Shown in pieces: positions 523-35,800 of a DNA stretch of 64,000 bases (positions are counted from its first letter, which is position 1; each line of letters starts with the position of its first letter). The translations under genes and the position numbers were made by a program. Source of the DNA: Escallonia rubra (Eukaryota > Streptophyta > Magnoliopsida > Escalloniales > Escalloniaceae); NCBI GenBank assembly GCA_033065855.1, contig JAVXUO010002880.1, positions 52,201-116,200 on the forward strand. The letters are read 5' to 3'. The notes below the pieces were generated by a model. It had not been told where the DNA came from and did not search any database. It saw nothing but the letters and a program-made list of their open reading frames with translations.

Positions 523-927
523 ACACTGTAAGAGAGTGAGCGCGTATGGACCCTTTGGGATCATATTATGGGTTACCGGAACGAAAGCTTGAGAAATCCT
601 GAAAAGATATTGTTCTTGAAGTACGAGGATATGAAAGAACAGCCTCGGCTTCACTTAAGGAGACTAGCTGACTTCATGCGTTGCCCATTTTCAGCGAAGG
701 AAGAGACAGAAGGGGTGGTGGATGAAATCTTGGCCTTGTGCAGTTTTGATAATCTGATAAACTTGGAAGAGAACAAGGATGGAAAACTTTCGTCTGGCAT
801 TGAAAATAGTGCATTCTTTCGACGAGGTGAGGTTGGAGACTGGAAGAATTATCTGACAGCTGATATGGGAGATCCACTAGACAAGATAATTGAGGAAAAT
901 TTATATGGGTCTGGATTAAGTTTTTGA
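523..927 (+). pseudogene. 5'-truncated cytosolic sulfotransferase relic
   Basis: This is the C-terminal third of a plant cytosolic sulfotransferase (PAPS-dependent sulfonation of small molecules). From 568 it reads the family C-terminus, including LFLKYEDMKEQPRLHLRRLA, the region IV PAPS-binding motif RRGEVGDWKN and the terminal YGSGLSF, very close to the copies at 15838 and 28363. Homology starts at about 523, at the codons for KGVS. The catalytic core, including the PKSGTTW loop and the RDPKD motif, is missing. Near 550-560 one T is absent compared with the intact copies (ccctttggg against cccttttggg), so the frame is also broken. It has no promoter of its own; a TA microsatellite abuts the break. 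It cannot encode an active enzyme. Confidence 0.85.
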
Positions 928-2360: not shown

Positions 2361-3475
2361 TTAAAAACTTAATCCAGACCCATAGAACTTTTCTTCAATG
2401 ATCTTGTCTAGCCGATCTCCTATCTCAGCTGTCAGATAATTCTTCCAGTCTCCAACCTCACCTTTTCGAAAGAATGCACTATTTTCAATGCCAAATACAA
2501 TTTTCCATCCTGTTCACTGTGAACAAGGATGGAAAATTGTATTTGGCATTGAAAATAGTGCATTCTTTCGAAAAGGTGAGGTTGGAGACTGGAAGAATTA
2601 TCTGACAGCTGAGATGGAAGATCGGTTAGACAAGTTCACTTCCAAGTTCCTCAGATTACCAAAGCTGCACAACCCCAAGATTTCATCCACTACCCCTTCT
2701 GTCTCTTCCTTCGCTGAAAATGGGCAATGCATGAACTCAGCTAGTTTCCTTAAGTGAAGCTGAGGCTGTTCTTTCATATCCTCGTACTTCAAGAACAATA
2801 TATTTTCAGGATTTCTCAAGCTCTCGTTCCAGTAACCCAGAATATGATCCCAAAAGGGTCCACATGCATATGTTCACTCCCTTACAGTACTTATTGAAGG
2901 CCTCTTCAAAAGAGATTATTTCGAGGTTTTGTGGTCTTAACGTGTTTGTGAAGTGCCAAAGGGAAACAAAAGCATCCTTAGGATCCCAACACAGATAGAC
3001 AAGTTTGCAAGCAGACTCGTGTACGGATTTTGGAAGCGATACGAATGGTAAATGAGTTGAAAAGAGCCTTGGAGACACGAAGGAAGCAAGATCAGGGACC
3101 TTATTATTCGCATAGAGATTAAGTTCCAAGAAAGGTACGAGATCTTGAGGATTAGTTCCGACTAACGGGTGGTCCTTGGTGATAGGACAATGCTTCCTGT
3201 TAACTAAGGTGAACATGAGTGCCTTCAACCAGGTGATGCCTGACTTGGGAGTGGTGACAAGGAGGATATCGGTATCTTGGGCTTGAAAGTGTTGTTGACA
3301 TGCAGACTCCCCCCAACTGCCAAGCACTATGCCAGAAACCTTGGTATTTGTATATAGGGGCAAGCAATTCTTTTTCTTTGGGGAGGGTGGACAGCAACGG
3401 ATTTCCTTCTTGGGTCAGTTCATCTTCTTTTAAGAACTTATGAAGATCAGAAAGAGGTGGTTGAGATGTAGGCAT
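2361..3475 (-). pseudogene. Cytosolic sulfotransferase pseudogene with frameshifts and internal palindrome
   Basis: An intronless sulfotransferase copy in reverse orientation. The start at 3475 (MPTSQPPLSDL) corresponds to the starts of the two intact copies. Reading to the stop at 2361-2363 gives the family order: KYQGFW, PKSGITW (PAPS 5'-phosphosulfate loop, Thr replaced by Ile), STHLPF with the probable catalytic His, CWDPKD (Arg of RDPKD replaced by Trp), YEDMKEQP and the region IV GDWKN motif. The frame breaks near 3310, again near 2865, and is destroyed at 2403-2634 by an inverted duplication of its own 3' coding region. A degraded TATA-like sequence lies upstream near 3549-3556. It is clearly non-functional but preserves the whole gene length and its 5' flank. 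Confidence 0.9.
2403..2634. repeat. Near-perfect 115-bp-arm palindrome inside the sulfotransferase pseudogene
   Basis: The left arm (2403-2517) and right arm (2519-2634) are reverse complements around a single central base at 2518, with about one indel and a few mismatches. Both arms encode the same C-terminal sulfotransferase segment, from the NKDGK region through GEVGDWKNYLTAEM to RLDK, in opposite orientations. On the minus strand the gene therefore runs into an inverted copy of its own next 115 bp before the normal copy follows. Confidence 0.93.
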
Positions 3476-14150: not shown

Positions 14151-14284
14151 TTGCTTGACGTGCAAAGGTTTGGGCCGCCCGGGAGTGTTCTGTTGTTCCA
14201 CTCCTGAAGTAACAACTACTGGGATGTGGGGCCCTTGAGTTTGCCTTGTTGTGTTCCTTTAATCATCATATGCATTGTTTTACT

Positions 14285-14466
14285 GGATCATGATCTCCTG
14301 CTGTAACCCATGGTTACAGTTGGGTGCTGTGATCCCAAATGAGAGAGGGGGAAGAGAGAGAGCAACCCCCTCTCTCTCTTCCCCCTTCTCTCTCTCTTCC
14401 CCCTTTCTCATTTGGGATCACAGCAGCCTGCTGTAACCCATGGTTACAGCAAGGCAATCATAATCC
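14285..14466. mobile_element. Fold-back element (182 bp) with 9-bp target duplication
   Basis: Almost the whole element is one hairpin. The ends ggatcatgat and atcataatcc, the inner ctgtaacccatggttacag (14301-14319, again at 14429-14447) and gctgtgatcccaaatgaga against its complement are inverted, with purine/pyrimidine-rich arms meeting near 14375. It is flanked by tgttttact (14276-14284) and tgttttatt (14467-14475), a 9-bp duplication with one mismatch. Unit 2 has no such insertion at the corresponding position (about 27095-27105). The 9-bp duplication suggests mobilisation by a MULE-type transposase. Confidence 0.8.
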
Positions 14467-14476
14467 TGTTTTATTA

Positions 14477-15063: not shown

Positions 15064-15765
15064 TTCTCTTTCCTTAATTTGTTCATGTGATATTATCATG
15101 TTTTTCTCTTCTTTTTGGATCAAAGAACTTCAGCAATTTTCTTTTTGAGGTTTAATAATTTTGCACTTCAATTTTATTGGTTGCACTAATGATACTATTT
15201 GGCAATCTTTAGCAAAAATATAAGTTGCCGACAAGTATAACTATAGCGTAAAAGTAAAACAGACTTATAGTGGAAACTTCCATTGTTATTGATGTTGTTT
15301 TACGTTATGATTATAATAAGACGTAACTTAATGAGTATTTTCATACTTATCGAACGTCAGGTTAACACTAGTTAATGTTGTAAAATCCAAGTAGACAGGG
15401 AGTTAACTTAAATTGAAGAGGCGTGCATACATTGTATTTGAACGTCATTCCCGACCCTCGAAAATAATGTCTTTCTGCATGTCATTGGCTTGAGTAAAAA
15501 TAAAATAAAATTGTTTGAGGTAAATTTTGAGAGCTTCATTAAAAAATATTTCTAACATAACACATATTTGATCGCCAATGACTATAAGTACTAAGAAAAC
15601 CGCAACCCTATTCAACTCAAAGCTGGATAATTAGACAACTCCATATGTTGACCAGCTACAAACATGGAAGCCTTTAAGTCTGGTTCCTAAATAAGCATAC
15701 ATCTGGTTGGAGGCCTTTAAGCATTTAGGGCTTCAATGGGTTGCTAAATGCCTGGATCATTAAGC

Positions 15766-15773
15766 TATAAATA
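15766..15773 (+). promoter_or_regulatory. TATA box of the intact sulfotransferase gene
   Basis: TATAAATA 72 bp upstream of the chosen start at 15838; transcription would start near 15797. The same box is conserved at 28291-28298 and degraded in the inverted copy. It lies inside the longest open frame, so the upstream ATG at 15748 is unlikely to be used. Confidence 0.75.
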
Positions 15774-15837
15774 CCCCCATGAAGACATCTTGAACATCAC
15801 AAAGCAAATTCTAGGCTTCAAAACCTTTCCAACCTCC

Positions 15838-16815
15838 ATGTCTACATCTCAACCTCCTCATTTTTTAAGAGATGATGAAGCGACCCAAGAATGTCAAGCC
15901 TTGCTGTCCACCCTCCCGAAAGAAAAAACAAGGCTTATCACTCTGCACAAGTACCAAGATTTCTGGTATAGTGCTCGGCAGTTGGGGGGAGTCCTTGCAT
16001 GTCAGCAACACTTTCAAGCTCAAGATACAGATATCCACCTTGCCACCGCTCCCAAGTCGGGCACCACCTGGTTGAAGGCACTCGTGTTCACCTTACTTAA
16101 CAGGAAGAATTGTCCCATCACCAAAGACCACCCGTTAGTCACAACTAATCCTCATGATCTCGTACCTTTCTTGGAATTTGATCTCTATGCGAATAATCAG
16201 GTCCCCGATCTTGCTTCCTTCGCGTCTCCAAGGCTCTTTTCAATTCATTTACCATTCACATCGCTTCCAAAATCCGTACACGAGTCTGCATGCAAACTTG
16301 TCTATCTGTGTAGGGATCCTAAGGATGTTTTTGTTTCCCTTTGGCACTTCTCAAACAAGTTAAGACCACAAAACATCGAAACTATCTCATTCGAAGAGAC
16401 CTTCCACAAGTACTGTAAGGGAGTGAGCTTCTTTGGACCCTTTTGGGACCATATTCTGGGTTACTGGAAAGAAAGCTTGAGAAATCCTGAAAAGATATTG
16501 TTCTTAAAGTACGAGGATTTGAAAGAACAGCCTCGGCTTCACTTAAGGAGACTGGCTCAGTTCATGCATTGCCCATTTTCAGCGAAGGAAGAGACAGAAG
16601 GGGTGGTGGATGAAATCTTGGAGTTGTGCAGCTTTGGTAATCTGAGGAACTTGGAAGTGAACAAGGATGGAAAATTGTCGTCTGGCGTTGAAAATACTGC
16701 ATTCTTTCGACGAGGTGAGGTTGGAGACTGGAAGAATTATCTGACAGCTGAGATGGGAGATCAACTGGACGAGATAATTGAAGAAAAGTTCTATGGGTCT
16801 GGATTAAGTTTTTAA
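15838..16815 (+). CDS. Cytosolic sulfotransferase (plant SOT family), intact copy
   Basis: Predicted PAPS-dependent cytosolic sulfotransferase that transfers sulfonate to a hydroxylated small molecule (flavonoids, steroids or hydroxy acids in this family; the substrate cannot be read from the sequence). The 325 residues are normal for the family and intronless, as is usual for plant SOTs. Visible motifs: PKSGTTW at residues 72-78 (5'-phosphosulfate loop), IHLPF with the likely catalytic His at 137 (the preceding Thr found in the sister copy is Ile here), RDPKD at 159-163 (3'-phosphate binding), RRGEVGDWKN at 291-300 (region IV) and the C-terminal FYGSGLSF. An ATG at 15748 opens the same frame but precedes the TATA box, so 15838 is preferred. 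The 5' flank is shared with the copy at 28363. The family call is firm. Confidence 0.92.
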   Translation: MSTSQPPHFLRDDEATQECQALLSTLPKEKTRLITLHKYQDFWYSARQLGGVLACQQHFQAQDTDIHLATAPKSGTTWLKALVFTLLNRKNCPITKDHPLVTTNPHDLVPFLEFDLYANNQVPDLASFASPRLFSIHLPFTSLPKSVHESACKLVYLCRDPKDVFVSLWHFSNKLRPQNIETISFEETFHKYCKGVSFFGPFWDHILGYWKESLRNPEKILFLKYEDLKEQPRLHLRRLAQFMHCPFSAKEETEGVVDEILELCSFGNLRNLEVNKDGKLSSGVENTAFFRRGEVGDWKNYLTAEMGDQLDEIIEEKFYGSGLSF

Positions 16816-17554
16816 TTAAGCATCATAGGCGTGTGCTCCAAAGTTTACTGCAGCATATCTTGCATTACTTGCTTTCTATTTTGTTTGAAGTCATTAGTCG
16901 GTCGGAATGGTCATGTCAAATAATCCTGTTGTTTCATTCCGATTCCAAGCGTTGTATAAGGTGGTTGTTTAATTTCTCTTTTGTTTGGCCATTGGTGCTC
17001 CCCTCCTCCCGAAAGAAAGAATTCAGTCCTCATCCCGGAGGGGATGGATAGAAGATTCCAGTGTTGGGCCAAAGTGAGGACCGGCTAATCAAAAGGTCAA
17101 AAAAAAAAATGCACGGAGTGGGCCAAAGGGAGCCTGCTCTCATGCCAGTTGAGCCAGAACCGAACCACAAACCCAACCAGAAGCTGATCCAGAAGATGAA
17201 GATGAAGTAGTAGCCGTAGCCATAGCCATGTTGGTTATAGGGGCTTAATTACGTCCTGATATAATGTTTGGGAAATGGAATTCCATTTGAGTGTACGTTT
17301 TCAAGCTCTGCTGTATGAAGACCCCGAGATTGAATAATCTCTTTCATCTGTGGGGCTTTCATGCTTCTACTCAATCCTTGATGAACAATAAATAAGGGTG
17401 AGTGCAACTCTTTGAATAGGTAGCTAATGTCGTTCTCGAGCATATCTTATGATGCAAGCTCTTGGGCAGTACTCCCCACTTGGGCTTTGAAAAGGAACTT
17501 GGCAGGAATAGTTCCAGCCTTTCTTGGGATTCAATACAACAATTGGGATTGGAA
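16816..17554 (+). other. Sulfotransferase 3' flank
   Basis: Non-coding flank. The part at 17106-17210 is the sequence that became coding in the sister copy after a deletion (29335-29439). The stretch 17220-17410 matches 29450-29640. Confidence 0.6.
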
Positions 17555-17808
17555 CGTTGACGCAAATAACTAAAACTTCATCCCCCCCCCCGGTCTCAAT
17601 TCAATTGTCACAGTAAATGAAGTATCAAAATAATAATATATTATTATGCAAAGTATGTCAAACCCAGATAATAATATGATGCAATCCCAAATAACAACAA
17701 GCATCCACAAGAGACAAAGAGTTAACGTGGAAACTCTCCAATGGGAAGGAAAAACCCACCCACGGGCCAAACTCCAAACCAAATCCACTATATCAACGAC
17801 TTGCAATA

Positions 17809-19015
17809 ATCAGACTTTTGAAAGAAAACTTAATCATAAAAAAAGAACTCCCCCACTCTTTCTCTAAAAATCCTTTGCCTTCTCACTAAAACCTAGCTCC
17901 GCAGAAAAACCACCATGGCCGCCCCACCGTGCTTCCGCGCGCGTGGGGCGGCAGCCACTACGGCGATTAGTTTGTAGGTCTCCTTTTCAGTCTCGTGTGG
18001 TGGTACCTTTACGGCGTGAGCGTAGACGATCGAACAAATGGTGGGAGGACAGTGACGACGCGCGGCTATCCAAATCTGATCGGAGACGACGACCTCAAGG
18101 TAAGTCTCCTATCTCGATAGATCTAGGCAGATCTAAGTAGATCTGCCCGATCATTTTCTTTTCCACCGGCGGTGACCAGAACTTTACCGCTGACTTGACA
18201 GTATTTTTTAACGCATCCTTCAGCTTTTTACATTCCATTCTTATCCGTTTTTTATTGCAAATTGGTGGAAGATGGGTTAGTGGTTGGTTGTGGTGGTTCT
18301 AGTAGCTTCAGGGGCTCGTTGTTGAGGGATTTAGCCTAGTTTATGGGTTTGTTCTTGGAACCCGTTGAGTTTAGGGAGGGAGGGGTGGGGGGTGAATTTT
18401 GTAGGGAAGAAAAGGGGGATCCGGGGCCCCTGGAAGGGGGGAGGGGGGATGGGCAGAGTCCTGTACCGTGGGGTTTTAGGGGCACCCTGTTATTGGGGGT
18501 GTTGGTTTAGGGCTCTTCTCTTGGTTTTGAGCGTCCTGAGTTGCTATTTTGGTATGTTGTGAGTCAGTAGTGGTCCTCCGTTCGATATAACGCTAATTTG
18601 GTTCGGATTTGATACGTGAAAGTAGGAGGATGTACATAGCGATGTTGAACAATCAATGTTTGGGTGTCGCGACTTCTTAAACGACGTGCTCACCTTTGGC
18701 TTGTTCAGTCCCGATTGTCCGCTGTATTTTTACTACCTTGTGTTTGTATTGCATTTGCTTAGTTTTCGTTCTTTTGGTTTTTAAACCGGTAGCCTTTGCA
18801 TGTTTCTTTAAGTTGAGTTAGAGTGTAGGATATGCTCTACTTTAATTCAATTTGAACATGTATAAGTTTATTAGGTTTTTCGTTACGTTTCGACCTTTGT
18901 GATCATGTATACTGAGTCACGGGATTGTCGTGACCTATAATGTTTGTAAGCTCTATAACAGAGCGTCTGTAAAACTTTCATTTTCAATGCAATTCGCATA
19001 TTATAAAAAATAAAA
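17809..19015 (+). mobile_element. LINE-like retroposon with 13-bp target duplication
   Basis: The interruption is bounded by acgacttgcaata (17796-17808) and acaacttgcaata (19016-19028), a 13-bp duplication with one mismatch; the sister LTR at 29645-30191 has a single copy. The right end is A-rich (attataaaaaataaaa), preceded by a 3'-UTR-like sequence with ttcaatgcaattcg, typical of plant L1 ends. The left part is GC-rich, like an L1 5' leader. No reverse transcriptase or endonuclease is present, so it is internally deleted or nonautonomous. Confidence 0.6.
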
Positions 19016-19097
19016 ACAACTTGCAATACAATGGTTCTTCTCAAATTTACACACCAAATTTAAGGAATCACAATAAATAAAGAGTTCAAAAAGATTA

Positions 19098-20335
19098 GGG
19101 TCAAATACACGTAGGAACCCTGAAACTACCACTAAGTCTCACTTGAGGGTCCCAAAGTTTAATTTTTACACATAGGAGCCTGTAACTCCAAATTTGCAAC
19201 AAGTAAGGGCATCCGTCTAAATTCCTAACGGTTCAGCCCTTTCCATCAGGGGCATTTTCGGGAACTCATTTGAAAAATCTCTTTAGGGATGAAAAAATAA
19301 TAATAATAAAATTCAAGAGAACATAGGGCTGTCCGACCCGCGCGTGACCCGCCTGCGCATTTCTTCCTTTAACAACCCAGTATCCATCCTAGACCCATAA
19401 CCCGTAACCCGTTACCCGACCCATCCACCCGACCCGCACACTGCCTCTATCTCTCTCTCTCAACCCTAATCCCAAAAAACCCTAATATCTCTTCTCCGCG
19501 CCGCACCCCTTGCCGCCACCACAGCCCCTATAGCCTCACTGTCGTGCCTCCCCATCGCCGGTCCCAAGCCCCATCGCCGTTCTCGCTCTCTTCCCTCCTC
19601 CATCATCCCTCGCCTTCCATGCCGGAAGCCCCGCGCCACCCATCGCCTGTCACAAGCCCCGTCGCCGTTCTCCCTCTCTTCCCTCCTCCATCATCCCTCG
19701 CCTTTCCTACCGGAAGCGCCGCGCCACCCATCGCCTGTACCAAGCCCCGTCGCCGTTCTCCCTCTCTTCCCTCCTCCATCATCCCTCGCCTTCCCTGCCG
19801 GAAGCCCCGCGCCACCACCCATCGCCTGTCCCAAGCCCCCTCGCCGTTCTCCCTCTTTTCCCTCATCCATCATCCCTCGCCCTCCCCTCCGGCAACCCCA
19901 CGCCGCCCTCCCAAACTACCCTCACCACACTGAAAATTCTTTCGCTGCCACAAGAATGGCTATGGTGCGAGCCACGGTACAAATCACAAGAATGGCTTTG
20001 GACTAAAAATCACATTCGAGCTTTGCGGATTGAGGTTTTGGTGGTTGAACTGAAATCTGTTGTCTTCATATTTGGTATGAGTGAAACAATGCCAATTTTA
20101 GGGTTCCAAATATTAATAGATTAGGGTTCTAAAAATCAAGGGAATTTACAATAAAAAAAATAAATATAAGTTTCCAACCCCTGACGGAAAGGGCTGGACC
20201 GTTAGGAATTTGGATGGATGCCCTAATTACTTGTTGCAAATTTGTAGTGTCAGACCCTTATGCGTAAAAATTAAACTTTAAGACCCTCAAGCGAGACTTA
20301 GTGGTAGTTTCAGGGTACCTACGTGTATTTGACCC
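19098..20335. mobile_element. MULE (Mutator-like) element, nonautonomous
   Basis: Terminal inverted repeats of about 158 bp (19098-19255 and 20178-20335) start gggtcaaatacacgtagg and are about 90% identical. The flanks are aaaagatta (19089-19097) and aaaggatta (20336-20344), a 9-bp target duplication with one mismatch, as expected of MULEs. The interior has a GC-rich segment (about 19335-19930) with an 87-91 bp tandem repeat and no transposase. It is absent from the sister LTR at 29645-30191. Confidence 0.9.
19562..19900 (+). repeat. 87-91 bp GC-rich tandem repeat inside the MULE
   Basis: About four units, each starting near aagccc(c)(c/g)tcgcc, at about 19565, 19652, 19740 and 19832, each with the stretch ctccatcatccctcgcc. 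The array reads open in several frames on both strands because the unit is GC-rich. Protein-level meaning is doubtful. Confidence 0.8.
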
Positions 20336-20581
20336 AAAGGATTACCTATTTGAGTTGACAAACCCAACAAAAATCTCCCAAAATGGTTGCTCTCCCTCAA
20401 TTTTCTTTCTAGCTTTTCTGCTGAAAATTTAGAGAAGATGATAGAGTTCCATTTGTTTTATAAGACTTCAATAAATAACCAATTACTCACTCAAACTAGG
20501 TAACTCTCCCCATGCCACTTAAATAGACCCAATTCAAATGGATTACCTCATGGGTACGTGAGGACACCCGAATACCCAACA

Positions 20582-22990
20582 ATCTCCCCCCTCAAAACCC
20601 ATGAGAGGAAGGAACCCCAAACACGACCACTCACTTGGAGTCCATTCCGGCAAGTTCCTTGCAAAGCTTAAGCTTCTCTAGGAACCACCTTTGTCATCAT
20701 GTCAGCTGAATTCTTGTCTGTGTGGATTTTCTCTAGTTTCGATCAACAATTGATTTTCTACCACCTCGCGTATCCAATGATAGCGAATATCAATGTGCTT
20801 CGTGCGAAAATGATATGTAGCATTCTTGCTCAAGTCAATAGCTGTTAGACCCCTCATATTTAAATGCTTAAAAAAAATTTAGAGAGTTTGGGACGTAATG
20901 GGTATTTTGAAATTCTATTTGTTTTAGGAATATAAATATATATCTTTTAGGTGTCTGATAGTTACGTACATTCATAGGAGCACACTAAAGTTTAGAAAAG
21001 TCTCCAGAAAATTCCTAGGAAGAGCCTTTTGAGAGTTTGATCATTATTCGAGGTAAGAATTTATTTTTGGGTATCGAATTGAGGTTTGTAGTTGGAATCC
21101 TTACGAATTTTTGTTATTGTTGGAACCCTAATTATAACTTTTGGGTATATTAATTTTTAGGGATTTTGATATAATTGATTCAGAAGATCAAAGTTTTGTG
21201 ATTGAATTGCACAATTGGAGGTAAGGATTTACTGTTTTTGATATTCGAATCAGCGTTGGACCAATTATCAGTGTTTAATTGAAGTGTTCACCGTGCCAAT
21301 TATTAGCATTGGATTTATCGTGAAAATCTTTTTCCCCGTCGGTTGATACAAAGCGTCAAATTTCGTTTATGATGGCTTTGGTTTCCGTTCCGTTTAGTCA
21401 CGGCGGCGTTTGAAGTTGTCAGCGTCGTTGGTTTGTCAGATCCGTGCCTGACTGTTGCTGATCTTTTTCTTTTTCTTTGTTGAGCCGCATAAACCAGCCC
21501 TTGTTTGACTTTGTGATGCGTGAGAATTACCTTGGATATGTTTTCTATCGTTTCGTCAGCCGTGTGGGTTAATTGCATCTTTTATTCTGCTCTTCATATT
21601 CCAAATGTTTCAATCAGTCTAGTGCCTTTAGTACCCATCATTTTCAGATACAGTACCTGTCTTATAGTTCTTTGCTTTTCACCTGGAGAGAAGCAATTCA
21701 GCTCCTTAATTACCATTAGTTTCATGCATTTACACTCGTGTGACAGCATGGCATATGTCACGGTTCTGCACACTTTCATCCTTTTTCTTGTCGTTCATTT
21801 TTCTTGTTTGCACCTTAATTGGCTTTCGGTATTCTTTCTCATTGTTGAGATTTTTTTTGAGATACCCTTTGATTTGCTTAGAATTTATCGTCGCGTTTAT
21901 GTCACATGACTTTGTGTAATCGATGGCGATATTCTAGCTTAAGTCATAGACCGTGAAGGGTAGACAACCATTCTTTATGTATGTATACGTAACCTTATGA
22001 GCCATGTCACAGTGTATGTGATTTTATATTTCTGACTTACCCACGTGGATTGGAACGTGGGCTAGCTCAGTGGGATGAGCTAGAGATCGCGATCTTATTT
22101 TTCTGAACCTGGTTTCATGTGTCAGTGATGGCATGTGTGACCTTATTCTGAATGGCTCTCTAGCGTCTGTCTTTGTACAAGGATGTACTTTTGACATTCT
22201 GTCTTTTTACGAAAGTATATTTTGGCACTTTAAAATTCTGTCTCGTATCTGTTCCGTTAGAGTTTTGTACCTCCAAAATTTCATTCTTCAGACATATTTT
22301 TTTGTATCCCTTTTGGTTGGTCCGTTGAGCGACCTTACTGGGCATTTGGCTCACTTCCTTACTGTTTTTCTCTCAGGTGATCAGTAAAAAGGGGACTGAA
22401 TTGCAGGGCTAGCTGTGTGACTGAGAGCTAGCGGTTTAATCTCATAGCTACTTTGATTATTTTTAGAAATTATAATAAGAGGAAATATTTGGATTTCGAT
22501 GTTTAATTTGGAACTCCTGGTAGGAGTAAATTTGGGATTAAATTACTGTTTAAGGCCTATTTGACATTTAATTGTGTAAATTGGAGATTTTCTGTTTAGA
22601 TGCTCTGAATAACCTGTTTGGGAGACTTTTGAAAATTTAGGTTTTCTGACTTTGTTTATTTGATATTAACGCTCCGAAAATTCGGGGCGTTACAATAGCA
22701 CTCTGACTATCACAATGAACTGCATACTCCTCTTGGTTCAAACCCAACACTCGGAGAAAGCGTTTTAACAACATCATTTCTTTACTAGTTTCAGTAACGG
22801 CAATGTATTCAGCCTCTGTTGTAGACAAGGAAACACATTTATGCCGTTTGGACTGCCATGATACAGCTCCCCCTGCAAAAGTAAATAATAAACCTGATGT
22901 AGATTTCCTACCATCAAGGTCACCTACCATATCTAAATGTGTAAAGCCTTCCAAAACTGGAGTAGAACCCTAAAACACAAGCACAAACTT
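20582..22990 (-). mobile_element. Copia RNase H fragment (unit 2), split by a solo LTR
   Basis: Minus-strand coding DNA of a Ty1/copia polyprotein C-terminus. 22637-22970 reads DGRKSTSGLLFTFAGGAVSW, then SLSTTEAEYIAVTETSKE and HCDSQSAI, the copia RNase H signature. The remainder, 20582-20837, matches 30192-30446. It is 5'-truncated (no reverse transcriptase, integrase or gag attached) and interrupted by the element at 20843-22694. Confidence 0.85.
20843..22694 (+). mobile_element. Solo LTR (1852 bp) in the copia fragment
   Basis: Begins tgttagacccctcatattta and ends ttcggggcgttaca (TG..CA), flanked by the 5-bp duplication atagc (20838-20842 and 22695-22699). The unit 3 copia fragment has the uninterrupted sequence at about 30446. 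No internal retrotransposon genes are present, so this is a solo LTR left by LTR-LTR recombination. It is homologous to 36467-38518. Terminal sequence resembles Ty3/gypsy LTRs, but the family is not settled. Frames within it are not treated as genes. Confidence 0.88.
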
Positions 22991-23029
22991 GAAGTACCTT
23001 TTAAGTATGGAGTTTGGAGAACTTTGCCA

Positions 23030-24790
23030 AATGTAACTTCTTTTAAACGATTTATGAGGAATTAAGAATATCCTCATAATTCTTTTAGCCTAAAATTTTA
23101 GAATATTTCCAGTATTATTTACTTTAAGTTAGGATAAAGTGTAAAATATGTTCTCTTTTAGTGTAATTGTAATCTGTACAGGACCTATTATGTTGTTAAG
23201 TAGCTCGTTATTTACTAAATTAAAATTTGCGTGTGCAGCTTATGACCTACGAAATGAAAGGTAAAATAAGTGAAGGTAATTAAGAAACGCACTTCTCTTT
23301 ATCGTCTCCCTTACTTTACCTCCACTCCCAGAGTTAAGGTCCTCTTGGTTAGAAAATTCAGAAGCTAAATTCTAATCAAATATGGTTGAACCAAATTGGC
23401 ATCCTTTAGAGATAAAAATCAATTGCGAGGGAAAAATCAGTGTTAGCATAAAATACGTTCTGTGCTATTTCTTCACGGAAAAACTTTGGTTGCAACCTAA
23501 ATTGTAGTAAGAGCCTTACAACCCCCATACAATGACGAATGGTGAAGATGTAGTAAGTACTACCACAGCCCCAACGCTTAACTCACGTTCCTCGCAAATG
23601 GATATTCTCGAAAACTTGATTTTGATCGTTGCATCAGTTCGTTACAGAATTACGATACCAGCTAACACTGGTAGGCAACTGCGGGAATAGAGAAAGCAAG
23701 GTATGCCCCTCTTTGCTAACAATAGATTCGTAATAGGATGAAGCCAATTTTGGGTCTCACTATATCATAGATTGCCCGTCGAGATGATGCACATTCTAAT
23801 TTATGAAACTATATATGTTAGTTAAACAAACTGGAAAAAAAAAACGTACCTTGCATTCTCCATTAGCACAATTCGCTAATTTTAAGAAGAGAAAAACAGA
23901 TTCTCTTTGGATTGTAGACCTAAACCAGAGAAAACAATTGCAATATTTTCAACGGCTTTTATGTAATTTCGTAAAAGCCATTGGCATGCCAATTTCTAGT
24001 CGTTCATAATTATATGTTGATCACATGGTTACGGAAAGGAAAATAAAAGTTAGGTAAAAGGGCGTAAAAGAATCAGTGTCCAAATGGATGACCTGCATTA
24101 TCCCCTCTGGATCGATTTGTAGAGTACTACTGGCACATAATTGGCTACGAACCGGTGAGTAGAACCAAGTGCCACCACAAACAGGCTGCTCCTCCCTTTC
24201 TGCATGTAAAGATGGTTGAGCACCACATGCTGATGTTCGAACAGATGACCTGCATTATCACCTTTGTATCGACTTGAAGCACCACATGCTGAGGTCTTGA
24301 AGAAGGTGGTGGAATCTCCATGTGGGACGCTGGAACGTTTAGTAGTGTCATTTGTAGATGTGGAGGAACTAATGGTGGCTCCTTTGCATAGTCCTCGGCC
24401 CCAGGATGCAAGTTGTTGAAGATCGAGTCTGGGGACTGGGGAGGTTCGAAGCCAGAAATGCTTTTGACATCTTCTGGAACATATTCATGCAGCATTGGTG
24501 CAACAATTAGAGATTGTGACCATCAAGTGGTTATTTTTCAAGATTATACATTCTCAAATGCAGCCCGATCTCCCCACCCAAAAAAAAAAAATTCCATAAT
24601 AAAAAGCAACAAAAATAACAAAAGCGGACAACCACATAATAAGTTACTTACATCGATGAAATATACAAGAGGAGCGGTGGGGGGCAGGCGATGAGCATTT
24701 TTTATCTTTCACCAAAAAAATCTAAGTTGAAATATACAGCCAAAAAGAACAACGATATTTAGTACGACCACATTAATTCAGCTGTGACTG
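23030..24790. repeat. Segmental duplication unit 2: spacer plus beta-subunit exon
   Basis: Closely similar to 30780-33330 and more distantly to 8830-10790. It carries the orphan beta-subunit exon and then the AT-rich spacer leading to the sulfotransferase at 28363. Compared with unit 1 it lacks most of 10800-13610. Confidence 0.85.
24139..24486 (-). pseudogene. SnRK1/AMPK beta-subunit last-exon copy, rearranged and without splice acceptor
   Basis: The minus strand reads [20 protein letters not shown], then [20 protein letters not shown] and SSRPQHVVL, nearly identical to the functional exon at 32691-33017. It then diverges: the segment coding for LNHLYMQKG onward is displaced by about 60 bp containing sequence from a tandem copy (see 24077-24300). 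The acceptor that reads ctgcag in unit 3 is ctgcat here, so the exon could not be spliced at the normal site. No upstream exons lie nearby. Confidence 0.88.
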
Positions 24791-24827
24791 CAGCTGTAAA
24801 TTCAGTTCCTATGCATCATGTGATGGT

Positions 24828-25495
24828 TACAAATTATTTTTTGTTTATCTAAGCGTAACAATTACCATCCTAATCTACTAATTAATCATGATTTTTTGTT
24901 AACTGAAAATTTTAAGCACGTCAATTAATATCCAAGTCTACTAAATAGTCATGATAATATGAAGTTTCAAATGGTTTTAGATAAAAGCATGAATACAAAG
25001 TTTTAAGACAAAATAAAAGAGAAAAAAAAGACAAGAGTCTTGAAACAATCTTAAGAAATCTAATCCTAAAATAAGAAAGAAACCAGTAAAAAGAAGTCTT
25101 CAAAGATCTTCAAACCAATATGGTTAGAGGATTTTAAAGACTAAAGAAAAAATACACATATCTTGTACACATAATATCATACATACAATATTTATTATAT
25201 AAAAGTTGGACGGGCTGAGTTTTCCACATGCTGGATGGGCCTTTAAAAACCTTTACCCATGCCCAGCTTATATATTTTTACGGGCTCAAAATTTTTTGTT
25301 CATGTCCGCCACGGTCTGTATAATAGTAAATCTTTGTTCATATTTCTTCAGGTTCGCACAAGTTGCCCAGTCCAAATTACATATATCATTCTGATCCATA
25401 ATTGTTATCTTTTGCTAGACGTGCGAAGGTTTGGGCCGCCTGAAAGTGTTTAGTTGTTCCACTGCTAAAGTAACAACTGTGAAGAAGACTACTAG
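24828..25495. other. AT-rich spacer, related to 13613-14215
   Basis: Matches the right part of the hAT-like region of unit 1 and the sequence following it. Nothing coding is visible. Confidence 0.5.
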
Positions 25496-26942
25496 TCTAT
25501 CTATATTACTTCTAAAAGTGTCAATGAGTGTAAATCATTTTTTGGACATAAATGCCCTTACAAACTTTGTTCATGACGTAAATACCCTTTTAGTCCTTTG
25601 ATCTTATTCTTCTTCAATGCAAAAGTTCCTTAAAACACTTTCACTTCCGATTCCTCCCCTCCAATACATTTCAAAGCGTCTCCCTCTATCTCTCCAAGAC
25701 ATTAATTGCGGGATTAACTCTCGCAACACTTCCTCTTAAAGTTTTCTCTCCTCCACATTGATTGATACTCTCCGCATACGCATAGATATCTAACTCAACA
25801 ACCTATTATTTGACAAAAGCTCTCAGATTTTGGGCTTTGCAAGCCTCTTGACTATAAAATCTATCTGCGGTAAATGAAAGTGAACGATGGACGATAAGAA
25901 TTTGAGAGCATTAGTGAATCTCAATGGAGGCTTCGCAGATAATGGAAAAAAATAGTTGGAATATAGTCCTCTAGAATAGCTACAGAGCACTGCTAGATGA
26001 ATAGGAGGACACGGTATGCAATCATTTCCGCATTCTTAAAAAATATATTTTTCTTACATAATCTAAAGGTTACCATACAAGTGCATGCAGTTACAAAAGT
26101 GGAATTATGGTCGGCTGATTAAAATGTGGAGCTGAGATGAGATAGTTTTAGGGGTTACATTTCTGGTCTAATGTGTAAGTGTTACAGTTTTTATGCCATA
26201 ATGTAATCATGTGGTTCCTGCATGTTCATCCCATGAGCATGTATCTCAGCAAAGTTCTTTTTCTTTTATACCGACGCCAATGAGGTATGCAAGTGTATTC
26301 TACCATTAACAATCGTTGGTTTAGCAGCGGCTAAGTTAGCCATCTTGGAGCGATAGCTAGAACGATATTTTTACGATGTAATTTTGGTTTCTCTTTATAG
26401 AAGGTGGGCATAAGTCATGACACGAACTTGCCCATTTGAAAAAAATGGAAGAAGATGACCTGATATAATTTCATGAAATGTTATAAAATCTTTTTTAGTA
26501 CTAGAGGTTTCTTTTGCTTGTATCTCTTTCATTACGGATATGTTAATACACATTAAGCATGTTTACTGTCAAGGTCACTCGAATTACGAGGTTCTAGCAA
26601 CCGTACCATTGGTGTAGCTTCGTGTATGTGAAGAAACTTCACCTTATATATGTTTATGGATCATAGCATCTTATAAACAATGTCATAACCCATTTCACAT
26701 AAATAATTTACAACTTGCAAACATTTTATGAATGAGGATCATTTGTTGTACTAAAAAAATAGTTGCTAAATGCTTTTTAACGACAAAAAATTGCCATTAC
26801 AAATTTCAATAATAACGACAAAACAATTTCAGTAACAATCTTGTATCGCTAAATGCTATATAGCACCTGTGCTGTACAGTAGAAGATCATGATTCATATT
26901 TTATCATGGGCACTTACATGTAAAGCACGTGTTTTCATCTAG
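25496..26942 (+). mobile_element. Candidate Helitron, nonautonomous
   Basis: Begins tctatctatattacttctaa followed by aaagtg and then a stretch with ttttggacataaatgccctt, which is typical of plant Helitron 5' ends. It ends tttcatctag with a T after it, preceded by a weak stem (cttacatgtaaag). The preferred A before the 5' end is not present (g). The DNA is missing from unit 1 (about 14207-14215), although another 100 bp next to it is also extra. No Rep/helicase gene is present. Confidence 0.5.
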
Positions 26943-28290
26943 TATGATAAATATAAAAAAAGATGAGTTGCATCTGTCGCTTTATAAAGATTTGTAAATC
27001 TTTGCAATGGTACCTAAAATATTTTCGAGAGCTTTATTTAGGATGTGGGGCCCGTGAGTTTGCTTTGTTGTGTTCCTTTGATCATCACATGGATTGTTTT
27101 ATTCAGAAAAGTATTGCTTTAAAAGTTGCACGCTGCTTTATTAAAAGGGGTCCGTTTCTCTACTTTTTCATAATTATCTTTTTATAAAGACTAACCATAA
27201 TTTCGGTTTTCTCTTTGGTTATCATCTATGAAGTGGAATTCATGGGTGTCTCTACGTACTTTGTTAGGTTTATTCCTACACGTTAATGTACTTTGGTAGA
27301 ATTTAAATTGTAAGAACATAGTATGAAATAGAAATCCGTTTCAAATATTAATTGACATGTTTCTATTTGCAGCATAGTATGTTTAAGAACAAATTTTCTT
27401 GTATGGATCTATGACGAGGACGGAGTTTCTTGTATGGATCTATGACGAGGACGGAGTGGCTTTGGATGGTTTTAGTTATATTATTGCACTGTAGTACTAC
27501 TTTCTCTTTCCTTTGTTCATGTGATATTATCATGTTTTTCTCTTCTTTTTGGATCAAAGAACTTCAGCAATTTTCTTTTTGAGGCTTAAGAATTTTGCAC
27601 TTCAATTTTGTGGGTTGTTTTATTGGTTGCACTGATGATACTATTTGGCAATCTTTAGCAAAAATATAAGTTGAAGACAAGTATATATAACTTTGGTGTA
27701 AAAGTAAAACAGACTTCTAATGGAAATTTTCATTGTTATTGATGTTGTTTTACGTTATGATTATATATAAGACGTAACTTAATTAATAAGTATTTTCATA
27801 CTTAGCAGATGTCGGGTTACACACTAGTTAATGTTGTAAAATCCATGCAGAGAGGGAGTTAAGTTAAATTGAAGAGTCGACTCGTGCATGCATTGTACTT
27901 GAGCGTTATTCCCAACCCTCGAAAATAATGCCTTTCTGCAGGTCATTGACTTGAGTAATTTTTTTTGGGATAAATTTTAAGAGCTTCATTAAAAAAAATA
28001 TTTCTAACGTACATAATACATATTTGATCGCCAATGACTGCAAGTACTAAGAAAACCACCACGACCCTCTTCAACTCAAAGTTGGATAATTAGACAACTC
28101 AAAGCGACAAAAACTCTGAGGAGCTTAAATGATTTGCTACCTTATTGGTTCCCAGTAACCTCCATATGTTGGCCAGCTACAAACATGCATGGAAGCCTTT
28201 AAGCCTGGTTCCTAAATAAGCATATATCTGGTTGGAGGCCTTTAAGCATATAGGGCTTCAATGGGTTGCTAAATGCCTGGATCATTAAGC
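26943..28290 (+). repeat. Sulfotransferase 5' flank, unit 2
   Basis: Matches 14220-14280 and 14490-15765, without the fold-back insertion or the tandem duplication seen there. A 31-bp direct repeat (ttcttgtatggatctatgac..., at about 27398-27459) is private to this copy. Confidence 0.75.
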
Positions 28291-28298
28291 TATAAATA
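28291..28298 (+). promoter_or_regulatory. TATA box of the second sulfotransferase gene
   Basis: TATAAATA, identical in sequence and spacing (72 bp to the ATG at 28363) to the box at 15766. Confidence 0.75.
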
Positions 28299-28362
28299 CC
28301 CCCATGAAGACATCTTGAACATTCCAAAGCAAATTTTAGGCTTCGAAACCTTTCCGACCTCC

Positions 28363-29439
28363 ATGTCTACATCTCGACCCCCTCATTCTAATCTTCCTAA
28401 GTTTTTAAGAAATGATGAAGTGACCCAAGAATGTCAAGCCTTGCTGTCCACCCTCCCGAAAGAAAAAACAAGGCTTATGACTCTGTACAAGTACCAAGGT
28501 TTCTGGTATAATGCTCTGTGGTTAGAGGGAGTCCTTGAGTGCCAGCCACATTTTCAAGCTCAAGATACAGATATCCTCCTTGCCACCACTCCCAAGTCAG
28601 GCACCACCTGGTTGAAGGCACTCATGTTCACTTTAGTTAACAGGAAGGATTGTCCCATCATCACCGAAGACCACCCCTTAGTCACAACTAATCCTCAAGA
28701 TCTCGTACCTAACTTAGAATTTGATCTCTATGCGAATAATCAGGTCCCCGATCTTGCTTCCTTCGCGTCTCCAAGGCTCTTTTCAACTCATTTACCATTC
28801 ACATCGCTTCCAAAATCCGTACACGAGTCTGCATGCAAACTTGTCTATCTGTGTAGGGATCCTAAGGATGTTTTTGTTTCCCTTTGGCACTTCTCAAACA
28901 AGTTGAGGCCACAAAACCTCGATATTATCGCATTCGAAGAGACCTTCCACAAGTACTGTAAGGGAGTGAGCTTCTATGGACCCTTTTGGGATCATATTCT
29001 GGGTTACTGGAATGAAAGCTTGAGAAATCCTGAAAAGATGTTGTTCTTAAAGTACGAGGATATGAAAGAACAGCCTCGGCTTCACTTAAGGAGACTGGCT
29101 CAGTTCATGCATTGCCCATTTTCAGCGAAGGAAGAGACAGAAGGGGTGGTGGATGAAATCTTGAGGTTGTGCAGCTTTGGTAATCTGAGGAACTTGGAAG
29201 TGAACAAGGACGGAAAATTGTCGTCTGGCTTTGAAAATAGTGCATTCTTTCGACGAGGTGAGGTTGGAGACTGGAAGAATTATCTGACAGCTGAGATGGG
29301 AGATCAACTGGACGAGATAATTGAAGAAAAAAAAAAAAGGCACGGAGTGGGCCAAAGGGAGCCTGCTCTCATGCCAGTTGAGCCAGACCCGAACCACAGA
29401 CCCAACCAGAAGTTGATCCAGAAGATGAAGATGAAGTAG
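28363..29439 (+). CDS. Cytosolic sulfotransferase with replaced C-terminus
   Basis: Second open sulfotransferase frame, 358 residues from the ATG after the TATA box (an upstream ATG at 28273 precedes the box). The core is complete: PKSGTTW, STHLPF with the probable catalytic His, RDPKD, KYEDMKEQP and RRGEVGDWKN. The family's normal end, FYGSGLSF, is missing. After EIIEE the frame runs through an A tract into about 37 residues (KKKRHGVGQREPALMPVEPD, then an MKMK end) that correspond to non-coding 3' flank in the sister gene (17100-17210). About 315 bp has been lost between two A-rich tracts. The enzyme may still be active, as PAPS-binding residues precede the change, but stability or substrate binding could differ. 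It may also be in early decay. Confidence 0.85.
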   Translation: MSTSRPPHSNLPKFLRNDEVTQECQALLSTLPKEKTRLMTLYKYQGFWYNALWLEGVLECQPHFQAQDTDILLATTPKSGTTWLKALMFTLVNRKDCPIITEDHPLVTTNPQDLVPNLEFDLYANNQVPDLASFASPRLFSTHLPFTSLPKSVHESACKLVYLCRDPKDVFVSLWHFSNKLRPQNLDIIAFEETFHKYCKGVSFYGPFWDHILGYWNESLRNPEKMLFLKYEDMKEQPRLHLRRLAQFMHCPFSAKEETEGVVDEILRLCSFGNLRNLEVNKDGKLSSGFENSAFFRRGEVGDWKNYLTAEMGDQLDEIIEEKKKRHGVGQREPALMPVEPDPNHRPNQKLIQKMKMK

Positions 29440-29644
29440 TAGCCGTAGCCATGATGGTTATAGGGGCTTACTTACGTCCTGATATAATGTTTGGGAAATG
29501 GAATTCCATTTGAGTGTACGTTTTCAAGCTCTGCTGAATGAAAACCCCGAGATTGAATATTCTCTTTGATATGTGGGGCTTTCATGCTTCTACTCAATCA
29601 TTGCTGAACAATAAATAAGGGTGAGTGCAACTCTTTGAATAGAT

Positions 29645-30191
29645 TGTTGACGCAAATAACGAAAACTTATTTTTCCTGTTGTCTCAATTCAATTGTCACA
29701 GTGAATGAAGTATTAGCAATAATAATATATTATACAAAGTAAGCCACAAACCCAAATAATAATATGATGCAATCCCAAATAACAACAAGCAACCACAAGA
29801 GACAGAGAGTTAACGTGAAAACCCTCCAATGGGAAGGGAAAAACCACGGGCCAAACTCCAAACCAAATTTAATATATCAACAACTTGCAATACAATGATT
29901 CTTCTCAAATTTACACACCAAATTTGAAGAATCACAATAAATAGATAGTGCAAACAGGTTACCTATTTGAGTTGACAAACCCAACAAAAATCTCCCAAAA
30001 TGGTCACTCTCCCTCAATTTTCTTTCTAGCTCTTCTACTGAAAAATTAAAGAAGATGATAGAGTTGTATTTGTTTTATAAAACTTTAATAAAGAACGAAT
30101 TACTCACTTAAACTAGATAACTCCCATGCCACTTAAAGAGACCCAATTCAAATGGATTACTTCATGGGTAAGGACACCCGTATACCCAACA
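29645..30191 (-). mobile_element. Copia LTR (547 bp), uninterrupted
   Basis: TG..CA-bounded: plus strand tgttgacgc at the left and tacccaaca at the right. On the minus strand it starts tgttgggta directly after a purine-rich tract (30192-30202, gaggggga type), as a 3' LTR does. It is the sister of the split LTR at 17555-20581. Confidence 0.75.
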
Positions 30192-30780
30192 ATCTCCCCC
30201 TCAGAACCCATGAGAGGAAGGAACCCCAAACACGACCACTCACTTGGAGTCCATTCCGACAAGTTCCTTGCAAAGCTTAAGCTTCTCTCTAGGAACCACC
30301 TTTGTCATCATGTCAGCTAGATTCTTGTCTGTGTGGATTTTCTCTAGTTTTCAACAATTGATTTTCTACCACGTCGCGTATCCAATGATAGCGAATATCA
30401 ATGTGTTTCGTGCAAAAATGATATGTAACATTCTTGCTTAAGTCAATAGCACTCTGACTATCATAATGAACTACACACTCCTCTTGGTTCAAATTCAACT
30501 CTCGGAGAAAGCGTTTTAACAGCAACATTTATTTACTAGTTTCAGTAATGACAATGTATTCAGCGTCTGTCGTAAACAAGGTAACACGTTTCTGCAGTTC
30601 GGACTGCCATGACACAGCTCCCCCTGCAAATGTAAATAATAAATCTGATGTAGATTTCCTACCATCAAGGTCACCTGTCATATCTAAATCTGTAAAGCCT
30701 TTCAAAACTGGCGTAGAACCCCAAAACACAAGCACAAACTTGAAGTACCGTTTAAGTATGGAGTTTGGAGAACTGTGCCA
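30192..30780 (-). mobile_element. Copia RNase H fragment, unit 3
   Basis: The minus strand reads SILKRYFKFVLVFWGSTPVL, then DLDGRKSTSDLLFTFAGGAV, EAEY-like residues (changed to DAEYI here) and HYDSQSAIDLSKN, the copia RNase H end. A frame break lies near 30528. The 5' portion of the element is missing. Confidence 0.85.
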
Positions 30781-31332
30781 AATGTAACTTCTTTTAAATG
30801 ATTTATGAGGAATCAAGAATATCCTCATAATTCTTTTAGCCTAAAATTTTAGGATATTTCCAGTGTTATTTACTTTAAATTTGACAAGTTACTTTAAGTT
30901 AGGATAAAATGTAAAATATATTCTCTTTTAGTGTAATTGTAATCTGTACATGACCTATTAGGTTGTTAAGTAGCTCGTTATTTACTAAATTAAAATTTAC
31001 ATGTGCAGAATATGACCTACGAAATGAAAGACAAAACAAGTGAAGGTGATTAAGAAACGCACTTCTCTTTATCGTCTCTCTTGCTTTACCTCTCCACTCC
31101 AGAGTTAAGGTCCACTTGGTTAGAAAATTCAGAAGCTAAATTCTAATCAAATATGGTTGAACCAAATTGGCATCCTTTAGAAATAAAAATCAATTGCCAG
31201 GGAAAAATCGGTGTTAGCATAGAATACGTTCTGTGCTATTTCTTCATGGAAAAACTTTGATTTACAACCTAAATTGTAGGAAGAGCCTTACAACCCCCGT
31301 ACAATGACGAATGGTGGAGAGGTAGTAAGTAC

Positions 31333-32510: not shown

Positions 32511-32825
32511 CAGTGTCCGAACAGATGACCTGCATTATCACCTCTGTATCGACTTGTAGAGTACTTCTGTCACATACTTGGCTAGGAACCGGTGAGTAGA
32601 ACCAAGTGCCACCACAGACGGGCCCTCCCTTTCTGCATGTAAAGATGGTAGAGCACCACATGCTGATGTCCGAACAGATGACCTGCATTATCACCTCTGT
32701 ATCGACTTATAGAGTACTACTGTCACATATTTGGCTAGGAACCGGTGAGTAGAACCAAGTGCCACCACAGACGGGCTGCTCCTCCCTTTCTGCATGTAAA
32801 GATGGTTGAGCACCACATGCTGAGG
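32511..32825 (-). repeat. Tandem duplication of the beta-subunit gene's 3' coding end
   Basis: The block gatgacctgcattatcacct to caccacatgctgatg (32524-32675) is repeated at 32685-32820. The right copy includes the functional stop at 32691-32693 and the last 45 or so codons; the left copy lies downstream of the stop, in what would be 3' UTR. Unit 2 shows traces of the same duplication and unit 1 does not. Confidence 0.85.
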
Positions 32826-35800
32826 TCTTGAAGAAGGTGGCGGAATTTCCATGTGGGATGCCGGAACGTTTAGTAGTGTCATTTGCAGATGTGCAGGAAC
32901 TAATGGTGGCTCCTTTGCATAGTCCTCGGCCCCAAGTTGCAAGTTGTTGTAGCTCGAGTCCGGGGACTGGGGAGGTTCGAAGCCAGAAATGCTTTTGATA
33001 TCTTCTGGAACATATTCCTGCAGCATTGGTGCAACAATTAGAGATTGTGACCATCAAGTAGTTATTTTTCAATATTATACATTCTCAAATGGAGTCTGAT
33101 CCTCCCCCACCCCCACAAAAAAAAAAAACCTCCATAAAGAAAGCAACAAAAATAACAAAAACAGACAGCCATGGAATAAGTTACTTACGTCGATGAAATA
33201 TACAAGAGGGGCGGAGGGGCACGGGCAATGAGCATTTTTTTATCTTTCACCAAAAAAAATCTAAGTTGAAATATACAACAAAGATATTCAGTACGACCAA
33301 ACTAATTCAGCTGTGAATTCAGAAGTGTCCCGATAGAACCAAATGCAAAATGTGCATAAACTAATTTCTTGACCTGTATGGCTTTTTATCTTTCCTTATT
33401 GACTAAAGCAAGAGCCTGTCCAGCAGCCTTCAACGGGCTCAAGACAAGGAGATGAACCAACCTTTACCCCATTATTAGCAACTGAACCCTCTTTTTCCAA
33501 GAAATCACTAATCCCTCACCTATTTGTATATCCCCGATACAGTATCATTATTAGCAAGGTAAACAAAACCATGTGATTTAATATCAACGAAGCGATATGA
33601 AAGGAGTGGGTCAAATGCTGGAAAACTCTAGGGCCTATATGTCTACTATTTTTGTTTTCTATTTTTATTTTATGTTTTTATTTTCATCATTTTCATATCC
33701 AGTTATCATTTTCACCACCTTTTTTCTAGCTACATTTTTAGCCGGTTTGTATACTTGTATCATTTTCATTTCCATTTTCACTTACTTTTGGACCGATACC
33801 TTTATGTTTACCATTTTTGGTCTCCCATTTCTAGTGGAGTAGTACTACGTGCATTCCTCTGCATTACTACCCAAGCAGGGTTGCTTCTGCAAATAACCAA
33901 TATACTCTTGCACCCTACTGCTGAAGAGAAGCTTTGTAACGGGGTGTGGAACTTCGGTGACGTCCCCAGCAATGCCATCTCCACCCTACTGCTGTTCTTC
34001 CAAGCACCGCTGCCTCTCCTCCTTGAATCAAACCCTAATTACTACCCCGACAAACCCCACGATTCAATTCTTTTCCTTCACAATCTACCAATACAACCCA
34101 AGTACCCAACCACATTGCAATCCCAATCAACCCCTACAGTTTTCTTTCACAAAATTCTTGATACAATTCACACACACAAAAAACACTTTTACTGTGTGTT
34201 ATTGCAGCAGCACCATCAACCTGCCCCACCTCCTCCCGCTCCAAACACCCAGTTCGCAACAATCAGTTACGGTGGGGGGCGACGATTGGAGCGCACACGT
34301 ACACACACACCTCTTCTGTGTATAATTGGATCATTAATCAACCTACCCAACTTCTCCCGCTCCAAGCACCCAGTTCGTAACCAGCCCTATCTAGTTTGTA
34401 TCAATCAGTCATAGTGAGAGGGCGACGATCGGATCAAGCAGGGGAGCTTCGTGCTTTTGGAGGTGTGGGGCAACAGATTTATGGAGCTGGGGAGGAAAAG
34501 GGGTTGAAGACTGAAGAGTGGAATGAGATAGTGGAGAAAGTGTGGAGATGGATCGATGCGGAGCGTCCGCCGGCGCAGTGCAGTGGATTTTGAGAGAGAG
34601 AGAGGGGGGGATTATGTTTCTCTGACAGAGGGTGAGCAGAGGAGTGAAAGAAAAAGTGAGGGGGGTAGTGTTTCTCTGACAGAGGGTGAGACTCTGTCGA
34701 GAAAAGCTGAAAACACCTTTAAGGTGTTTTAAGTTTTTTATTCCAAAATGAATACAGAAAATGGTAAAAAGTACACTCTAAAATGAATCTTTTTTGCCAT
34801 CATTGCAAAAACGGGATATAAAAATGGTAAGCATATGGCCCCTAAGTTTTTCTCATTAACCCTATGCTCAAGGTGGCCAGAGCCATCACCTTAGAAGCCA
34901 AGTAAGGACCATCATCAACACTCGCGTTCACATTTCTGTGTCTCAAGCCTGCATTGAGAAAACTTCAAAGCCTGCCTCCTTGTATTAAGTTGCCACATCA
35001 GTTCCTAAGCAGCCTAGTCAACCCAGAGTATCTTGTCAATTCCCAGTAACAAACAAAACTTACTTATGATACAATCAGGACCTGGAATCATACTACATCT
35101 ACGAAAGATGGTCTTTCAGGATTACATTAGAATTCCAGAGACTTAAGTGGAAGGCTGCTTCCAGCCTGAGATTATAGTTATCCTGACCAAGCATAAAGTT
35201 ATATTGTTGTATAGGTGCTTACAAAGGGTAATGCGAAAGCCTATGAGAAATGAAGAAGCTAAATTTAAAGATTCTGAATATATAAACGAGAAAAAAAAGA
35301 ACGAGAGGTAATAACAGGGCAATAAAAGGATAATAGGCCCTTTTTGTGATTGTTCTGTTCTGTTTGGATCAAGAGAAGAAGTTGATGGGGAGGAGAAGAA
35401 AGACAGAAAGAAAAATGGAATCTTTTTTGCGACACAGGCGAATTTTCCTGTTCTTGAACCTTCTTGGCTCCACAATCTGCGATGGTCCAAATCTAACTTT
35501 ACTAACTCTATTCAAACAAATTTTTCCGTCTCTTCCTTTTATCATTACAAGGATAAGCTCCCAATAAGCCTTTTAGCAAGAAGCTATATTGATAGTTCCA
35601 GAGGTAGGCGTAGGACAAGATAGGGTACTTTATGCTTGTGCCATTCCTCTTAGACAATTCATTTCATTCCGTGTTGCGTTTTTTGTTGATTTTCAGAGAA
35701 TACGAAATGAAAACAAGGCTAGCCCTGATGCCGACGCACTTACGGCTTTTGCCAAAGCAGTGTACAGTTTCTGAAGCAAGTGGTACAACACTACAACCCC

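Follow-up and report, generated by a model that had tools for sequence, protein, structure and literature searches.

One sulfotransferase gene in the window, the 64,000 nucleotides of Escallonia rubra DNA that were analysed, appears to have exchanged its C-terminal end for residues read from its former 3' flank. Relative to its sister gene (copy C), this gene (copy D) is without a net 314 bp, made up of the codons for KFYGSGLSF, the stop codon and about 286 bp of 3' flank, and nine residues are replaced by 36. The reading that fits best, with a probability of roughly 0.7, is that a duplicated gene underwent an ordinary deletion between short homologies, which left a sulfotransferase whose activity is uncertain and whose tail is incidental and probably disordered. 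The difference between the two copies, its direction relative to the paralogues, the motifs of the core and the open frame can all be read in this assembly.

The sulfotransferase cluster

Four sulfotransferase copies are present in the window.

532..927, + strand: copy A, a 5'-truncated sulfotransferase fragment with a native-type end, LYGSGLSF (last stop base 927)
2361..3475, - strand: copy B, a sulfotransferase pseudogene interrupted by frameshifts, with an inverted repeat inside it, native end KFYGSGLSF kept (last stop base 2361)
15838..16815, + strand: copy C, the sister sulfotransferase, 325 residues in an intact single open frame, native end KFYGSGLSF (tblastn, Pfam)
28363..29439, + strand: copy D, a sulfotransferase reading frame with a replaced C-terminus, 358 residues (Pfam, structure-sequence match, single open frame)

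A tblastn search of copy D against the window gave eight rows: copy D itself, copy C, three pieces of copy B, copy A, a stretch of the 3' flank of copy C that corresponds to the copy D tail, and an inverted piece within copy B. The inverted piece reflects an inverted repeat of copy B's own coding sequence at 2399-2638, with 113-nt arms that are 96% complementary and 14 nt apart; it is possibly the product of a foldback or template-switch event and would possibly give hairpin RNA if transcribed. Among the changes on its own branch, copy C has T to I beside the catalytic His (RLFSIHLPF).

The frame of copy D starts with the ATG at 28363 and ends with an in-frame TAG at 29439, directly followed by a second TAG, and there are zero internal stops across its 358 codons. 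Two coding indels separate it from copy C, of 15 and 3 bp, both multiples of three. Pfam finds Sulfotransfer_1 in both copies. In copy D the match to this family (PF00685) has an E-value of 1.2e-76 and 257.9 bits against a cut-off of 22, and it covers profile positions 1-253 of 255, compared with 1-255 of 255 in copy C. The best solved-structure match by sequence is 1q44 (2.4e-103), followed by chains named cytosolic sulfotransferase 16 (SOT16) and 18 (SOT18), all of which we take to be Arabidopsis proteins. Judged by these matches, copy D is a plant-type cytosolic sulfotransferase (SULT/SOT), where "plant" comes from the nearest sulfotransferases. The regions set out in the available part of one study are region I for the 5' phosphate, the catalytic His, the Arg/Ser of the 3' phosphate and region IV with GxxGxxK (PMC4199319). 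All four are found in copy D by string match, the motifs being PKSGTTW at 77, THLPF at 142, CRDPKDVFVS at 164 and RRGEVGDWKN at 297. A preliminary description of this DNA had called the catalytic core untouched. The four catalytic and PAPS-binding motifs are indeed present, but an unharmed enzyme does not follow from them.

Two further elements lie outside the frame of copy D.

28291..28296, + strand: TATA-box-like site, 72 bp upstream of the copy D ATG, with a matching place in copy C at 15766 (pattern match in both copies)
29610..29615, + strand: AATAAA, a polyadenylation-like signal beyond the new stop of copy D, with a copy C counterpart at 17387 (pattern match only)

Since both remain in copy D where copy C has them, these pattern matches suggest that a transcript could still start and end.

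Copies C and D sit in duplicated blocks (from about 9232 and from 23238 onward). BLAST diagonals outline units repeated head to tail, of about 14 kb and about 8 kb, and the start of a third (9232-23237, 23238-31010 and from 31011). Two of the length differences between the blocks look like insertions in the first (copy C) unit, one at 19098-20341, which has terminal inverted repeats, and one at 20843-22692, which has a CAATAGC repeat on its flanks. The other length differences, 17420-17555 and 17809-19006, may include further losses in copy D.

Other features of the window were observed alongside. A fragment that matches AMPKBI, the AMPK/SNF1 beta-subunit interaction domain, lies at 24148-24522 on the - strand (9.9e-07); a frame that opens with the same sequence is present at 32694-33053 (-), and 10130-10480 (-) holds a related stretch read in a different frame. 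A frame at 59925-60638 matches Myb_DNA-bind_4, a Myb/SANT-like DNA-binding domain (6.8e-23), and is presumably a trihelix-type transcription factor. The window contains 37 homopolymer runs of at least 10 bases, and there are poly-C runs of 20, 21, 13 and 18 bases at 8284, 11257, 47755 and 49935. The long poly-C runs may be real or may be a sign on homopolymer consensus quality.

The deletion junction

The features at the junction are as follows.

16788..17101, + strand: 314 bp of copy C missing from copy D, the exact limits being ambiguous within the A tracts (alignment of C and D)
29327..29338, + strand: A12 tract at the deletion junction, which sets the tail frame (AAA three times and then AGG); in copy C the tracts are AAAA at the left and A11 at the right
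29329..29436, + strand: 36 new residues (KKKRHGVGQREPALMPVEPDPNHRPNQKLIQKMKMK), homologous to the copy C 3' flank at about 17102-17207 (alignment; 3 differences in 97 bp after the A tract)
29437..29442, + strand: tandem TAG TAG stop of copy D (sequence)

The preliminary description stated that a deletion joins the frame of copy D to former 3' flank, and this was confirmed with the coordinates right and the tail within one residue. It gave a loss of about 315 bp and about 37 flank-derived residues, and the measured values are a net 314 bp and 36. As it described, EIIEE runs into an A run, and the order in copy D is EIIEE, the 12-A tract, the new residues and TAG TAG. The sister end that it reported, FYGSGLSF and a stop, is seen in copy C as EEKFYGSGLSF and a stop, and the A run that it placed 300 bp downstream is an A11 tract that starts at the 284th base after the stop.

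In copy C the A11 tract occupies 17099-17109 and is followed by TGCACGGAGTGGGCC. In copy D, GAAG is followed by A12 and then by GGCACGGAGTGGGCC. The anchors common to both copies, GAGATAATTGAAG and GCACGGAGTGGGCC, are separated by 13 bp in copy D compared with 327 bp in copy C, and the junction strings are GAAGAAAAG...GGTCA11TGCACGG in copy C and GAAGA12GGCACGG in copy D. Taking 16788-17101 out of copy C reproduces the copy D junction, including the exact A12, save for one T-to-G change, and this join has 3 bp of microhomology. Removing 315 bp would use 4 bp of microhomology, yet one A must then be gained later. Among 57,600 breakpoint pairs at the end of copy C, at least 3 bp of microhomology was found in 5.5% and at least 4 bp in 1.7%. 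An A-mediated join is favoured by these sequences, although a single event cannot establish a mechanism and the microhomology is short.

The homology of copies C and D is not due to chance, since the 5' flank, core and 3' flank all align at about 95% identity. The differences number 9 in 197 bp of the 5' flank, 48 in 946 bp of the core coding sequence, 3 in 97 bp of the tail region after the A tract and 10 in 206 bp of the flank beyond.

The direction of the change is given by the other copies. Copies A, B and C all finish with YGSGLSF and keep the native stop, so that the preliminary description was correct that the loss between A-rich tracts removed an end conserved in the sisters; the loss of an ancestral stop is also what characterizes a de novo C-terminal extension. 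Copy C aligns through and past its stop with copy B (16751-16993, 86%) and with copy A (16753-16914, 77%). The loss is derived in copy D, as the native end and some of the deleted flank survive in copies A and B. By this comparison the copy C state is ancestral for about two thirds of the segment including the stop; 16994-17098 has no other match in the window, so that this third has no outgroup. The outgroups are paralogues (A and B) and not orthologues, from one assembly. An insertion in copy C rather than a deletion in copy D was considered and ruled out, as the copy C stop and flank align with copy B to 16993 and with copy A to 16914. On the same alignments the deletion is younger than the duplication of the C and D blocks.

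We infer the following sequence of events, from the repair mechanism to expression, disorder and the effect on activity. Copy D, one of several duplicated plant-type cytosolic sulfotransferase genes, would first have separated from copy C. Some 314 bp would then have been deleted, bringing the AAAA at the coding end together with the A11 tract of the 3' flank; replication slippage or microhomology-mediated end joining would account for this most simply. Nine terminal residues would have been lost in this way, along with the stop and about 286 bp of 3' flank. If copy D is expressed, translation would pass through the A tract into 36 residues open by happenstance and would stop at TAG TAG, upstream of the surviving AATAAA. 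The likeliest outcome would be neutral, or else a less stable enzyme with lower output, given the loss of a shared C-terminal segment and the gain of a poly-A track.

The new tail and the fate of the enzyme

The tail of copy D is predicted to contain the peptide EPALMPVEPDPNHRPNQK. It has a net charge of +7 and five prolines, it is basic partly because the A tract reads as lysine, and it is probably disordered. Its length depends on the A run: A12 gives 36 residues, A11 gives 28, A10 gives 16 and A13 gives 17, and each of the three frames of the flank stays open for some distance. A frame open for at least 33 codons was found at 17% of 20,000 random places at window positions 4000-60000 (either strand, coding stretches not excluded). 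When 57,600 deletions were simulated in copy C, 11% gave at least 36 new residues and the median was 13. The openness of the tail frame is thus ordinary. The preliminary description spoke of coding DNA born from non-coding sequence. The frame does enter former 3' flank; birth of coding DNA is possible, but the claim outruns the evidence given these chance frequencies. The divergence of the tail (3%) is somewhat below that of the flank beyond and of the core coding sequence, with numbers too small to read as constraint. There is no clear sign of separate constraint on the tail, and with nothing found in the sequence that marks it as selected, it appears incidental. An origin of the tail from a different gene was considered as well. 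Read in another frame, the flank gives PEDEDEVVAVA..., acidic and then hydrophobic; this stretch is short and stop-bounded and was treated as chance. Among the literature matches listed, no report of this tail was recognized by title or the start of the abstract, which does not prove absence.

Counts of substitutions give a hint of past constraint on copy D. Unpolarised, copies D and C differ by 35 nonsynonymous and 13 synonymous changes over 316 codons (dN/dS 0.71, not different from neutrality, p = 0.28). When the codon-based count was polarised with copies A and B, the D branch had 17 nonsynonymous and 10 synonymous changes (ratio 0.46, p = 0.053), the C branch had 13 and 2 (ratio 1.74, p = 0.75, not significant), and 5 and 1 were left unpolarised. 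These counts are weak, as copy B is a pseudogene and copy A covers only about the last third. They hint at some constraint on copy D over at least a portion of its history, which would be compatible with a working protein, and all of this constraint may predate the deletion.

The lost end aligns with FKGSGLKF in 1q44 and GSGLTF in 22ga, and the ends of the SOT16 and SOT18 chains are less alike (FKDTGL and FKGTGL). Copy D lacks an FxGSGLxF-like end, which copies A, B and C share with 1q44 and, in part, with 22ga. It is common among the sequences compared, yet it is not treated as a defining feature of plant sulfotransferases. Narrow literature searches found no mutational study of the C-terminal end of sulfotransferases among the matches listed. 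In the available passages of a molecular dynamics study, ten terminal residues of SULT1B1 were excluded as their movements were highly unpredictable (PMC4492763). Together with the less exact ends of SOT16 and SOT18, this suggests that the extreme end may tolerate change. An AlphaFold model of copy D from a 4-row alignment had a mean pLDDT of 36.5 and a pTM of 0.24, and was set aside. The A12 tract is similar to polyA tracks that have been studied in reporters, and in the passages available such tracks within open reading frames lead to stalling and frameshifting (PMC5263891). In E. coli, 9-12 A lowered fluorescence by 15-35%, and in N. benthamiana 18 A, the shortest plant track in those passages, brought protein to about 70% (PMC5263891). 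By analogy, copy D would plausibly have a modestly reduced output and give some product in a shifted frame.

Several other explanations have to be weighed against an ordinary deletion with an incidental tail. Copy D may be effectively a pseudogene that gives little stable enzyme, its open frame having merely yet to decay. This shares the deletion with the preferred reading and differs only in its consequence, so that the two probabilities overlap; it is held tentatively, at somewhat less than an even chance. The likeness of the lost end to 1q44 and 22ga, the effect of polyA tracks on output in reporters (PMC5263891, as far as available) and the decay of copies A and B in the same cluster argue for it, while copy D has no frameshift or stop, its branch ratio is 0.46, the SOT16 and SOT18 ends match less exactly, and the terminal ten residues of SULT1B1 were excluded from the molecular dynamics study for their unpredictable movements. 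It is unlikely that the junction is an error of assembly or consensus, in which case copy D would keep its native end, or its A tract would differ in length, and the 36-residue tail would be absent as read. The 3-4 bp common to the break sites are judged too little for the usual overlap-based misjoin, the divergence of about 5% between copies C and D to either side of the join does not fit a simple collapse of their reads, and the native end is missing at every A-run length tried (9 to 15). The tail frame nevertheless hangs on A12, and there is a close parallel in the available passages on yeast, where a 288-bp deletion in two genomes, covering nine C-terminal residues, the stop and 3' UTR with short poly-A flanks, was an assembly error (PMC4494051).

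It has also been considered that copy D is neofunctionalised and that the tail has a role, for example through altered dimer contacts or through KKKR at the junction as a nuclear-import signal. The basic KKKR presumably resembles such a signal; basic residues are, however, expected from a translated A tract, and a frame of this length is open by chance at ordinary frequency. A role for the tail is therefore improbable, even though the four core motifs are intact, the D-branch ratio is 0.46, the TATA-like and AATAAA patterns are kept, and 1q1q (cytosolic sulfotransferase 2B1 isoform a), with 350 residues and a match that ends at 286-288, indicates that SULTs can carry C-terminal extensions. More improbable still is a fuller version of events, in which a poly-A-mediated deletion in a tandem array gave a working sulfotransferase with a basic, flexible KKKR tail, slippage on A12 gave tails of 36, 28 and 16-17 residues, and selection kept the copy.

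Known systems and meaning

Recent de novo C-termini that arose by stop-codon loss have been catalogued by Andreatta et al. (2015), with 54 Saccharomyces and 28 Drosophila cases (PMC4494051). In the passages available, 9 of the yeast cases, which are polymorphic alleles, go back to a point mutation and 45 to a frameshift, and the evidence for their translation is graded (PMC4494051). Copy D is like these cases in that a stop was lost and C-terminal residues come from former non-coding 3' sequence, and the new stretches there include lengths of 1 to 56 residues. In copy D, unlike the yeast cases described in those passages, the stop of a plant-type paralogue was lost through a 314-bp deletion, read from one assembly. 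It resembles plant cytosolic sulfotransferases (SOT/SULT) in its whole domain, PAPS motifs, catalytic His, single open frame and clustered duplicates, and differs from them in that its last nine residues are replaced by a 36-residue tail. Like SULT2B1 it has a SULT core with extra C-terminal residues; unlike SULT2B1, the tail replaces the last residues of the domain, and the likeness lies in the presence of an extension.

The phenomenon is thus already catalogued, and copy D is a new example of it in a plant-type sulfotransferase cluster. Copy D alone changes no view of gene birth. If real, it is a clean case from nature in which a deletion within a duplicated gene exchanged, in a single step, the end of an enzyme for former 3' flank; the intact sister copy C, about 12.5 kb away, would serve as a control. 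The pair would allow a test of whether the FxGSGLxF end is needed for plant sulfotransferase activity.
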